Shown here: positions 11,727 to 21,132 of the stretch, piece after piece
Numbering within the stretch: the first letter of the stretch is position 1
How the letters are laid out: every line of letters starts with the position of its first letter
Origin: Candidatus Aenigmatarchaeota archaeon
Lineage (GTDB): Archaea > Aenigmatarchaeota > Aenigmatarchaeia > GW2011-AR5 > JACRAC01
Assembly: GCA_016187395.1 (NCBI GenBank)
Contig: JACPJV010000021.1
Location: 1 to 43,955 of the forward strand
Reading direction: 5' to 3'
DNA: 43,955 nt
Notes under the pieces: model-generated
The model's database searches: none
Seen by the model: only the letters and a program-made list of their open reading frames with translations
Told to the model about the DNA's origin: nothing
Position numbers and translations under genes: made by a program

Positions 11727-11898
11727 GCCTCGGTGGTGTAGCGGTCTAGCATGTGGCCCTGTCACGGCCACGACCCGGGTTCGAAACAAATCCCTTTCTT
11801 TTCCCGAAAAGAAAGGTCTTTGTATGTCCCAAAGAAAAGGGAGCGTTCCTTTGGAACGCATAATACGAAAGGGATCTGCGAAATTCCCGGCCGAGGCG
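11727..11898 (+). tRNA. tRNA-Asp (GTC) with a 99-nt T-loop intron
   Basis: The acceptor stem pairs GCCTCGG (11727-11733) with CCGAGGC (11891-11897), and G73 is at 11898. The anticodon arm is TGGCC-CTGTCAC-GGCCA with anticodon GTC. The T stem CCGGG pairs with CCCGG (11886-11890). The T loop is split after A59: TTCGAA at 11780-11785, then position 60 (T) at 11885. Removing 11786-11884 leaves a canonical 73-nt tRNA with loop TTCGAAT. CCA is not encoded. Confidence 0.95.
11786..11884 (+). other. BHB intron at position 59/60 of tRNA-Asp
   Basis: T-loop TTCG (11780-11783) pairs perfectly with intron CGAA (11879-11882), flanked by 3-nt bulges AAA (11784-11786) and ATT (11883-11885): the strict archaeal splicing motif. 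The inner helix starts at 11787/11878 and runs 12 positions with one A-C mismatch (11787-11798 with 11867-11878). The interior holds hairpins TTCTTTTC-cc-GAAAAGAA and GCGTTCC-ttt-GGAACGC. Confidence 0.9.
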
Positions 11899-11961: not shown

Positions 11962-12024
11962 GATATTTGCACATAAACCTACAAACGGGCCCGTAGCTCA
12001 GCCTGGCAGAGCGCCGGCCTTTTA

Positions 12025-12075
12025 TCGGAAGATAAAAGATCTGAGGCGAAAGCCGCTGATGACGAAAGGAAAGCA
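12025..12075 (+). other. BHB intron 1 of tRNA-Lys (37/38) with K-turn and anticodon-complementary segment
   Basis: Exon CTTT (12019-12022) pairs with intron AAAG (12070-12073) between bulges TAT (12023-12025) and CAA (12074-12076). Inside, CTGA (12041-12044) and TGATGA (12057-12062) form a K-turn: tandem G-A pairs 58/44 and 59/43, a U-U pair, then G-C and A-U. The other arm is GGC/GCC capped by GAAA. Immediately upstream, GATAAAAG (12031-12038) is complementary to CTTTTATC (12019-12026). The inner helix next to the 5' bulge is weak. Confidence 0.85.
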
Positions 12076-12097
12076 AGCCGGGCGTCGCGGGTTCAAA

Positions 12098-12134
12098 GGC
12101 GTGTGAAGTTGCGAAGCAACTTCTATGCGGGACA
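12098..12134 (+). other. BHB-like intron 2 of tRNA-Lys (59/60)
   Basis: The 37-nt insertion lies at the same position as in tRNA-Asp. Bulges are AAG (12096-12098) and CAT (12133-12135). The central helix 12092-12095 with 12129-12132 has two Watson-Crick pairs, one U-G and one mismatch. The inner helix starts exactly at 12099/12128 (five pairs), then GAAGTTGC/GCAACTTC closed by GAA. It is a relaxed BHB but correctly phased. Confidence 0.8.
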
Positions 12135-12255
12135 TCCCGTCGGGCCCATCAAGCGCAGCGTGCGAGTGAACTTTTGCAAAAACGATGCGAGCTAGCTGCG
12201 CGCGATAGATTCCAGCGAGCTAGCAGTTCACGATAGAGTTATAGCGGTGAAAAGT

Positions 12256-18499: not shown

Positions 18500-18594
18500 C
18501 GCGATGCGAAGGTGTATGCACGTGTGAATGAATGGACACTTTCTACAGAAAGTGTCATTTGCTTCCGCTACAGAGAAATGTGAGGTGTGTAACG
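18500..18594 (+). promoter_or_regulatory. Structured leader before rpoA2
   Basis: This spacer has GGTGTATGCACG like the leader at 35900, a hairpin GACACTTTCT-ac-AGAAAGTGTC (18535-18556), then GAAATGTGAGGTGTGTAACG just before ATG 18595. The last 20 bases closely match the rpoH leader end. Part is translatable in frame with rpoA2, giving a peptide LQRNVRCVTMQ like the rpoH upstream reading LQRNVRCVSMQ; I think this reflects the shared RNA element. Confidence 0.5.
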
Positions 18595-21132
18595 ATGCAG
18601 GATGGAATTTCGAGGAAAGCTTTGGAGGCTTTTGAGAAGTGGTGCGAAGAGAAAGGAATAAGCGGATCCAAGAAAGAGGCGGCTTTGAAAAGGTTCCATG
18701 AAATCGTCGCAGAGACGAAGTACGAGCCAGGAGAGTCCATAGGCGTCGTGGCTGCGCAGAGCATCTCTGAGCCGGCGACGCAGATGAGTTGCTCGCCACA
18801 TGAAAAAATTATTCTGAAAAAGGAGGGAAAAGTTGGCGTTGTTGAAATAGGGAAATTTACCGACAGCATAGTAGAAAAGGTGGGGGATAATATTGATGGC
18901 TGGGGTGTCTGCGACATATCTTCAGAGGGAATATATGTTCCGAGCATCACAGACAAAGAAAAGATAGGATGGCGTCTTGTAAAGGCATGCAGCCGCCACA
19001 AATCTCCTGAAAATATGCTTAGGCTGACTACGTTTTCGGGGAGGCAAATAGTTGCAACACCTTCTCATTCCTTTGTAATCAGGAAAAATAATCAGATAGT
19101 TCCTATCGCAGGCTCCGGGCTGAGCGTGGGTGATAGAATACCGGTAATGAAATTCCTGCCGGAGAATTGCATATCAGAAATAAAGGTAGCAGACCATATG
19201 AATTCAAGATTGCTTCATGAAAAATCAGGACTTCTCTACACAACAAAACAATCAAAACCGATGCCAAATAGGATGAATCTTGATTTTCTCTTTGGATGGT
19301 TCATAGGAGCCTATCTATCGGAAGGCAACGCAGAGAGAAGCCATATCGGAATTTCGAATATCGATGAAAAATTTGTCTCAAACGTAAAGGCGTTTGCTGG
19401 AAAAATTGGCATGGATTTTGTGGATAGGATTTATGATGGCGAATTTGGCCCCGGGAGAACAATTAGAATAAATTCAAGTCTTCTCTCAAATTTCATAATA
19501 TCAACCTGTGGCAAGGGCTCCAATAATAAGAAAGTTCCTTTGTTCGCATACAGCGCAAAAGAGGGATTTATATCAGGCCTGCTTCGCGGTTATTTTGACG
19601 GGGATGGAAATGTTTCTGTCAAAAGAAAAATGATAAGGGCATCTTCAAATTCAAAAGAACTTCTCGACGGGATATGCATTCTTCTTGCACGCTTTGGAAT
19701 TTTTGCGTACAAGGTCGATGCAAAAACAAAAGTAACAACTCAGCACGGGCTCATAATTCCATATAAGTACGCGCCAGCGTTCTTGGAGAAAATAGGCTCT
19801 GACATTCCAAAGAAAAAGAAACGATTGGAACTTTTATCCGGGCTGTCAAAAATATTCTGGGATGAAAAATCACAGGATTTCACGGACGTAATAGGCGGTT
19901 TCGGGGATTTATTTTACAATACTGCCAGAAAGCTGGGATACCCGACAAGATATACAAATAGTTTTACAAAACGGCAGAAGATAGGAAGGACCGTCCTCGG
20001 GAGGCATATAAAACTATTTGAAAAGCTGTCTGCAGAAAAGGGTATCGATATAACTCCAGAACTCGGGATAATGAAAACTATGCTGAATTCCGACATTGTC
20101 TGGGATGAGATAGCTGGCATTGAAAGTATCGTTCCTGATTTTGACTATGTTTACGACCTCACAGTTGAAGGCACTGAAACCTTCACGACCTTTGATGGCA
20201 TAATAACGCACAACACAATGCGTTCCTATACCCTCGCAACGCAGCGCGACCGTCTTAGCAAAGTTACGCAGGGATTGCCGCGTCTCATCGAAATATTTGA
20301 TGCGCGCAAGACCTTCGAGAAGAATATGCGCATATACTTGAAGCGCGAGCACAACGACAAGGAAACAGCCGCTGCCCTTGCAGAGAAAATAAAGATGAGA
20401 ACCATATCAGATACGATAAAAAGCGATTCTCTTGATGTAACGAACATGCGCATTGAATTAGAACTGCAAAATGCTGGTGATGCTGACAAGATAAAGGAAG
20501 TGTTTGCAAAAAGCAAGCTGGATGTCTCGATAAGGGCGGATAAAATATTCATGCAGCCAAAGAAGGGTGACCTGAGGCTTCTCAGAAGATGGCGCAACAA
20601 AGTTCTATCGACGCAAATATCCGGAATAAAAGGCATCAAAGCCGTGGTCGTGTCGAAAGATGGCGAAGATTGGTTCCTTCAGACATCAGGCACAAATCTG
20701 AAAAAAATAATGCAGGTTGAAGAGGTTGATCCTGCAAGAATATTCACCAACGATGTTTATCAGGTTTATGAAGTTCTTGGAATCGAAGCAGCGCGCCAGT
20801 CAATACTTGAAGATGCCAAAAACGCGCTGGATGAGCAGGGACTGGAAGTGGATGTACGCCACCTGCTTCTTCTTGCCGATATCATGACACTGGATGGAAC
20901 TGTAAAATCCATAGGCCGGTATGGAATTTCTGGGTCCAAGGCATCTGTGCTTGCACGCGCAAATTTCGAGGAGACAAAAAAGCACGTGGTGAATGCAAGC
21001 TTCTATGGGGAAGAGGACAGGCTTCAGGGAGTTGTAGAGAACGTCCTTATAGGAGGAATAGTTCCCATTGGTACAGGAATGGTAAAGATAGGAATTGATC
21101 TGAACAAGCTGATGGGTGCGAAGAAGGGCTGA
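18595..21132 (+). CDS. rpoA2: DNA-directed RNA polymerase subunit A'' (A2) with intein
   Basis: The 845-aa precursor consists of an N-extein (1-64, ending GVVAAQSISEPATQM), an intein (65-540) and a C-extein (541-845, from TMRSYTL). After splicing it is 369 aa, normal for A''. The insertion point is in the highly conserved QM/TMR junction beside the trigger-loop region; LPRLIEIFDARK follows in the C-extein. I chose ATG 18595 with its GAGGTG site; an ORF start at 18532 would translate the leader. The subunit supplies the C-terminal part of the largest subunit, including jaw and clamp foot. Confidence 0.97.
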   Translation: MQDGISRKALEAFEKWCEEKGISGSKKEAALKRFHEIVAETKYEPGESIGVVAAQSISEPATQMSCSPHEKIILKKEGKVGVVEIGKFTDSIVEKVGDNIDGWGVCDISSEGIYVPSITDKEKIGWRLVKACSRHKSPENMLRLTTFSGRQIVATPSHSFVIRKNNQIVPIAGSGLSVGDRIPVMKFLPENCISEIKVADHMNSRLLHEKSGLLYTTKQSKPMPNRMNLDFLFGWFIGAYLSEGNAERSHIGISNIDEKFVSNVKAFAGKIGMDFVDRIYDGEFGPGRTIRINSSLLSNFIISTCGKGSNNKKVPLFAYSAKEGFISGLLRGYFDGDGNVSVKRKMIRASSNSKELLDGICILLARFGIFAYKVDAKTKVTTQHGLIIPYKYAPAFLEKIGSDIPKKKKRLELLSGLSKIFWDEKSQDFTDVIGGFGDLFYNTARKLGYPTRYTNSFTKRQKIGRTVLGRHIKLFEKLSAEKGIDITPELGIMKTMLNSDIVWDEIAGIESIVPDFDYVYDLTVEGTETFTTFDGIITHNTMRSYTLATQRDRLSKVTQGLPRLIEIFDARKTFEKNMRIYLKREHNDKETAAALAEKIKMRTISDTIKSDSLDVTNMRIELELQNAGDADKIKEVFAKSKLDVSIRADKIFMQPKKGDLRLLRRWRNKVLSTQISGIKGIKAVVVSKDGEDWFLQTSGTNLKKIMQVEEVDPARIFTNDVYQVYEVLGIEAARQSILEDAKNALDEQGLEVDVRHLLLLADIMTLDGTVKSIGRYGISGSKASVLARANFEETKKHVVNASFYGEEDRLQGVVENVLIGGIVPIGTGMVKIGIDLNKLMGAKKG
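18787..20214 (+). other. Intein with LAGLIDADG homing endonuclease within rpoA2
   Basis: The 476-aa insertion starts with Ser (SCSPHEKIIL) and ends with the C-terminal block VYDLTVEGTETF...IITHN. The terminal His-Asn and +1 Thr are intact. Two LAGLIDADG motifs are present: FLFGWFIGAYLSEG (precursor residues 231-244) and GLLRGYFDGDG (328-338), each with its acidic residue (Glu, Asp), so both splicing and nuclease activity look preserved. The block-B-like segment LTTFSGRQIVATPSHSFVI has the TxxH. The nucleophile could be argued as Cys2, but the usual QM-TMR extein joins favour Ser1. Confidence 0.92.

Follow-up and report, generated by a model that had tools for sequence, protein, structure and literature searches.

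Is the intron in the anticodon loop of an archaeal tRNA-Lys(UUU) gene also a guide RNA for the precursor from which it is removed? The gene lies in a 43,955-nucleotide stretch of a Candidatus Aenigmatarchaeota contig (JACPJV010000021.1), the whole of which is referred to here as the window. A preliminary description had proposed that the intron carries a K-turn and a segment that could guide methylation of its own U34. We consider it likely that the module is a self-targeting box C/D guide for its own anticodon loop, with a single K-turn and with box D ahead of box C (i.e., a circularly permuted order), most probably directing 2'-O-methylation of U34, although methylation itself is inferred from sequence rules. 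What the sequences establish is that the pairing and the K-turn are conserved and covary, and that the guide duplex excludes the splice motif.

ARAGORN and Rfam, run on the window, returned no match for tRNA-Lys(UUU), because the gene holds two introns, the second of them in the T loop. Despite this miss, the gene is a real tRNA gene (Table 1). RNA polymerase subunit genes lie downstream of it in the window, and the genome is that of a small archaeon (42 contigs totalling about 0.98 Mb, at 80% completeness). The named loci nearest to its RpoB belong almost without exception to Candidatus Aenigmatarchaeota. The boundaries of intron 1 are well defined by sequence, since AAAG-CA/A (the slash marks the intron end) pairs with C32-U35 in a relaxed bulge-helix-bulge motif. 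The form expected of an archaeal 37/38 intron, with 3-nt bulges and a 4-bp helix, is met in 37 of 39 guide-bearing introns, where intron positions -6 to -3 pair with C32-U35; the window has only a weak inner helix.

Table 1. Features of the tRNA-Lys(UUU) gene and of the guide module in its first intron (window coordinates).
Feature	Position	Strand	Basis or remark
tRNA-Lys(UUU) gene	11987-12148	+	sequence; same gene adjoins rpoH/rpoB in relatives
Exon 1	11987-12024	+	
Intron 1 (position 37/38, 51 nt)	12025-12075	+	
Exon 2	12076-12097	+	
Intron 2 (T loop, 59/60), unrelated to guide	12098-12134	+	similar introns elsewhere in genome
Exon 3	12135-12148	+	
Target strand CTTTTATC = C32 U33 U34 U35 U36 A37 i1(U) i2(C)	12019-12026	+	8-bp complement
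Guide GATAAAAG	12031-12038	+	perfect 8-nt complement of 12019-12026
Box D (D' in linear order) CTGA	12041-12044	+	two bases past guide
K-turn stem I GGC/GCC (12045-47/12052-54), GAAA loop	12045-12054	+	relatives' stems/loops at same place
Box C (C') TGATGA	12057-12062	+	RTGR core after D in relatives, 39/39
U34, predicted 2'-O-methylation site	12021	+	+5 rule (PMC8413462) applied to sequence
Splice-motif 3' side: AAAG pairs C32-U35, bulge CA/A	12070-12076	+	such pairing in 37/39 relatives

Kin of the T-loop intron were observed elsewhere in the same genome (L012, L013, L014 at C29:9261, and L015), in two tRNA-Arg T arms, a tRNA-like locus and the 16S rRNA gene, at about 73-89% over the matched stretches, and these copies appear to reflect recent intron spreading. 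The 16S rRNA gene (L014, contig C29 of the window genome) has several insertions relative to an archaeal model, one of about 900 nt. The tRNA-Asp(GUC) gene that adjoins tRNA-Lys(UUU) (window 11727-11898) is likewise interrupted in its T loop, by an intron of about 100 nt, and the C-terminal half of the RNA polymerase A subunit gene (window 18532-21132) is apparently split by an in-frame intein in which we read a homing-endonuclease-like domain. Another tRNA of this genome (L006, contig C2, 3325-3452), whose anticodon is unresolved, has a 70-nt insertion in its anticodon arm that holds ATGATGATG and two CTGA strings and may be another C/D-bearing intron.

The elements listed in the preliminary description, namely the CTGA, the TGATGA, the GAAA-capped stem and the eight-nucleotide complement, are all present where it had placed them. 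The tandem G-A pairs of its K-turn held as a possible pairing, in which G12043/A12044 could form sheared pairs with G12058/A12059 past a 3-nt bulge (GCU), and this arrangement is conserved and covaries in relatives. An archaeal box C/D guide should have a box C (RUGAUGA) and a box D (CUGA) that can form a K-turn or K-loop with tandem sheared G-A pairs, and both the window and 39 relatives meet this requirement. Box C can also be read in an alternative register as ATGACGA (12059-12065), which matches L023, L048 and L069, because the homologous box C in relatives is ATGANNN. Box C/D complexes methylate the base that faces the fifth position before box D (PMC8413462). That position is 12036, opposite 12021, and the base there is U34, as had been claimed; the further claim that six pairs remain after splicing also held, in that the guide could still pair with C32-A37 of the spliced loop. 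Archaeal guides normally need a second C/D motif (PMC8413462), and no second C'/D' motif was found on reading the window intron and its flanking exons. The lack of a second pair of boxes, which the preliminary description had remarked on, is thus real, and the module is a variant with one motif, not an archaeal guide of the canonical kind.

How readily might such features arise by chance? When the window intron was shuffled 200,000 times, a 6-nt complement appeared in 4.6%, a complement with YTGA at +2 in about 1e-4, and both of these followed by an RTGA in about 1e-5. The anticodon region of the pre-tRNA also folds more stably than its shuffles do (z -2.8). By themselves these odds are no more than suggestive, the features having been chosen after they were seen, and it is the relatives that decide.

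The tRNA-Lys(UUU) genes of the phylum were sought by D-arm and anticodon sequence only, with the intron ignored, and the sample is limited to tRNA-Lys genes with a consensus D arm in draft genomes, some of them metagenome-assembled. Among 58 parsed genes, 11 have no 37/38 intron, 8 have an intron without a guide, and 39 carry the guide, which is therefore present in 39 of 47 introns and in about 13 families of Candidatus Aenigmatarchaeota. The preliminary description would have been refuted by related introns lacking both the boxes and the complement, and the opposite was found, as those 39 introns carry both in the same register and with compensatory changes. This result must be qualified, as the guide is often lost in close relatives within the window's own order, where all of the guide-less tRNA-Lys(UUU) introns fall. 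The guide occurs there in the window, in L023 and in L027, and L023 has an identical GATAAAAG and, in an unchanged register, boxes that are degenerate (CTTA and ATGACGA). Guide-less introns number ten if L094 and L096 are counted, and intronless genes 12 with L095, while a looser search pattern added three genes of this order, none with a guide. Outside clade f17, all 32 guide-bearing introns contain TAAAAG (shuffle mean 1.8). From this distribution we infer, without having built a tree, that the module is ancestral to much of the phylum and was repeatedly lost; guide-less introns and intronless genes exist, so the guide is dispensable.

Two other arrangements were seen among these genes. L094 and L096 have an extra D-loop insertion, apparently a D-arm intron, and in L018 and L019 the anticodon intron is about 250 nt long, contains several hairpins and has lost the guide, while tRNA-Lys in these genomes retains a T-loop intron as well.

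Beyond the phylum, 30 tRNA-Lys(UUU) genes from 66 archaeal genomes were mostly intronless, and none of their few introns contained TAAAAG. The guide-bearing pattern matched only once in 138 other archaeal genomes (G232), and that match lacks the A37 pair and is unconvincing. A search of the phylum for a free-standing guide (TGATGA-N-TTAAAAG-N-YTGA) gave 11 matches, none of them convincing; most fall within long reading frames or overlap them, and two are not clearly coding, namely L165, at the end of a reading frame, and L170.

Evidence for the pairing comes from intron bases i1 and i2, which continue the target strand beyond C32-A37, a segment that has little freedom to vary in a Lys anticodon loop. 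Position i1 forms a Watson-Crick pair with the guide in 36 of 37 cases (A-U, G-C and U-A) and i2 in 32 of 37 (C-G, G-C, A-U and U-A). When guides and introns were re-paired at random, none of 20,000 permutations reached the observed i1 plus i2 pairing, whether all genes, one per genus (47/50 paired versus 23.6 expected) or one per family (25/26 versus 12.7 expected) were used. The permutation models the tree incompletely, and taking one gene per family removes most of the kinship; the result is unchanged when clade f17, which had been registered by hand, is left out. Guide-target pairing is thus kept by compensating mutations, and since i1 and i2 are absent from the mature tRNA, it is pairing with the precursor that has been selected. 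Extending the pairing to position 31 as a rule was rejected, as it fits G31 and A31 but not the C31 of the window. In clade f17 (L043-L049), all seven introns have a 1x2 internal loop in which A37 faces GA, TA or AA, while i1 and i2 pair. A37 is normally hypermodified in tRNA-Lys, and it is possible that this explains the loop.

One rival explanation is that the resemblance to a guide arose by chance, or is inherited without function. The window intron alone is a single case, and its nearest relatives often lack the module, but a shuffling frequency of about 1e-5 and covariation over about 13 families all but exclude this explanation.

The spacing of box D bears on what the pairing is for. A strict YYGA box D lies at +2 in 23 of the 39 guide-bearing introns and at +4 in 10, the other six being degenerate, and no register other than +2 or +4 was seen among the 39. 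Shuffles place a strict box D at +2 or +4 in a mean of 1.1 introns and a maximum of 6, against 33 observed. Assigned by target, the +2 register places the fifth base on U34 in 27 of 39 introns, which supports the U34 reading of the preliminary description, and the +4 register places it on C32 in 12. Both are known sites of 2'-O-methylation, as a guide of this class requires: Um34 and s2Um34 occur in Sulfolobus tRNA-Gln and tRNA-Leu (PMC7668247), and archaeal C32 is 2'-O-methylated by TrmJ (PMC5372725). An RTGR core follows box D in every one of the 39. The first pair of the K-turn, D1-C5, is C-G or U-A in 29 of 39 versus 16 expected (per genus 20/26, p=0.00045), and these figures are conservative, because the rule of taking the first RTGR mispicks box C in L061, L063 and L067. 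In L030/L031 (f13), where box D is CTAA and box C is ATGG, the second sheared A-G pair is swapped to G-A. Between the boxes the relatives have a stem of 0-8 bp or a short loop, differing in sequence with complementarity kept, as in archaeal K-turns and K-loops (PMC8413462).

The tRNA-Lys(CUU) genes of the same phylum were read as a control. About half are intronless, and a guide is absent from most of the 31 introns that were parsed. Five of these introns (L102, L104, L105, L125 and L151) have AAGAG followed by CC, which is complementary to their own G30-U36, with a D-like box at +4 that is often degenerate and with i1 and i2 unpaired; L150 resembles them, with one pair being G-U. Because these CUU introns carry a CUU-matched guide, the guide base opposite position 34 tracks the anticodon. 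In three further CUU introns (L153, L154 and L155), a box D/box C pair surrounds a stem without an anticodon-loop guide, and these boxes might be relics or a K-turn with another role.

An alternative to a methylation guide is that the hairpin is structural only, closing the anticodon loop and the 5' splice site until splicing, with the D- and C-like bases serving the fold. In support of this possibility, pairing in the precursor is demonstrable (i1 and i2 covary), the loops are often only 3-8 nt, and in the window this hairpin is the fold of lowest energy. It leaves unexplained, however, the +2/+4 position of box D (strict in 33 of 39), the RTGR core, the swapped sheared pair and the D1-C5 covariation. 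Moreover, introns without the hairpin in the same order and in CUU genes indicate that splicing does not need it, and the CUU guides pair with the anticodon-stem bases G30 and G31. We therefore regard a purely structural role as unlikely.

A second alternative is that the K-turn is an L7Ae site for regulating splicing or stabilizing the intron, with the complement secondary and acting as a switch against the splice motif. The persistence of K-turn-like boxes in the guide-less L153-L155 fits this idea, as does the mutual exclusion of the guide duplex and the splice motif over C32-U35 in 37 of 39 introns. An L7Ae site does not predict, however, a fixed spacing of +2/+4, by which the fifth base always falls on 34 or on 32 but not on 33, and we hold this alternative to be very unlikely. 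The box C/D guide remains the preferred reading, with several points against it: the missing second motif, the varying register, the f17 loop, the guide losses and the guide-less K-turns of L153-L155.

The proteins that a C/D guide requires are encoded in the window genome, with fibrillarin and an adjacent Nop5 on contig C38 and L7Ae on contig C6, and fibrillarin was found in 29 of 31 genomes of the window's order (28 above the cut-off). Binding of these proteins, methylation, and methylation before refolding and splicing are all inferred. In the proposed mechanism, the gene has the order guide, box D, closed stem or loop, box C. Boxes D and C would form the K-turn to which L7Ae binds, and 2'-O-methylation by Nop5-fibrillarin would fall on the nucleotide opposite the fifth position ahead of box D. 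For the window and roughly two thirds of the relatives with a guide this nucleotide would be U34; where box D is at +4 it would be C32. Because the guide duplex includes the first two intron bases, the favored substrate would be the precursor before splicing, either the same molecule (cis) or another one (trans). Archaeal tRNA introns are circularized (PMC7994747), and in a circular spliced intron the order would become the normal one of C, guide and D, with stem I as the terminal stem. Action in trans, which the preliminary description had suggested for the spliced intron, could not be separated here from action in cis on the precursor; the short closing loops make cis action plausible, though unproven.

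The 3' end of intron 1 (AAAG, 12070-12073) pairs with the same bases, C32-U35, as the guide does, and in naked RNA the guide duplex is more stable than the splice motif in 30 of 39 introns, by 4.3 kcal/mol in the window. Such a conflict between guide and splice folds has been noted for tRNA-Trp, for which action in trans was proposed to avoid refolding (PMC5372725). A bolder reading is that the pre-tRNA constitutes its own cis-acting methylation RNP, in which the intron, with its single K-turn, folds back on the anticodon loop to direct methylation of U34 (or C32) and the guide fold blocks the splice motif until the duplex is released, but on present evidence we lean against it.

The closest precedent is the tRNA-Trp intron guide of euryarchaea (Haloferax volcanii, PMC11408192 and PMC7994747; sR50 in Pyrococcus), which also sits in the intron of the tRNA it targets. 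Like it, the Lys module has competing guide and splice folds and, by inference, targets position 34 and acts on the precursor. The tRNA-Trp intron has the box order C-D'-C'-D, and the Lys intron D-C. The Trp guide has two C/D motifs directed at C34 and U39, whereas the Lys intron has one motif and one target and belongs to another lineage; as its host is tRNA-Lys(UUU) and its guide single, it does not qualify as a double guide of the Trp type. A C/D RNA in the elongator tRNA-Met intron of Nanoarchaeum equitans (PMC3491384) is similar in that a reduced DPANN archaeon carries it within a short tRNA intron and in that it has one box D and one box C, but it concerns another tRNA in one species, its target is unproven and no covariation has been shown. 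In N. equitans, a permuted C/D RNA gains the correct box order only when it is circular (PMC3491384); such permuted sRNAs (sRNA24 and sRNA26, and the Pyrococcus circles) likewise have D before C in the gene, but they are free-standing genes rather than tRNA introns. Single-domain box C/D guides were described by Deryusheva and Gall in 2019 (PMC6770171). The minimal form, like the Lys module, has one C, one D, one K-turn and one guide, but it is engineered and eukaryotic, with a 14-nt antisense element directly between C and D.

In the open-access literature that was searched (subscription papers were not covered), we found no guide intron in tRNA-Lys and no tRNA introns in this phylum, and the tRNA introns found to hold C/D guides are those of euryarchaeal tRNA-Trp and the one proposed for N. 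equitans tRNA-Met. The Lys module would thus be the third tRNA with such an intron, in a separate phylum and with a much smaller layout of one K-turn in permuted order. With it one can ask, in a natural system, whether guided methylation in archaea can proceed with one K-turn and in what order methylation and splicing occur, and as species with the +2 and +4 registers are predicted to methylate different bases, the reading can be tested by comparing them. If the bolder reading is true, wobble methylation would be a checkpoint that precedes splicing, and the excised circle could act again in trans.
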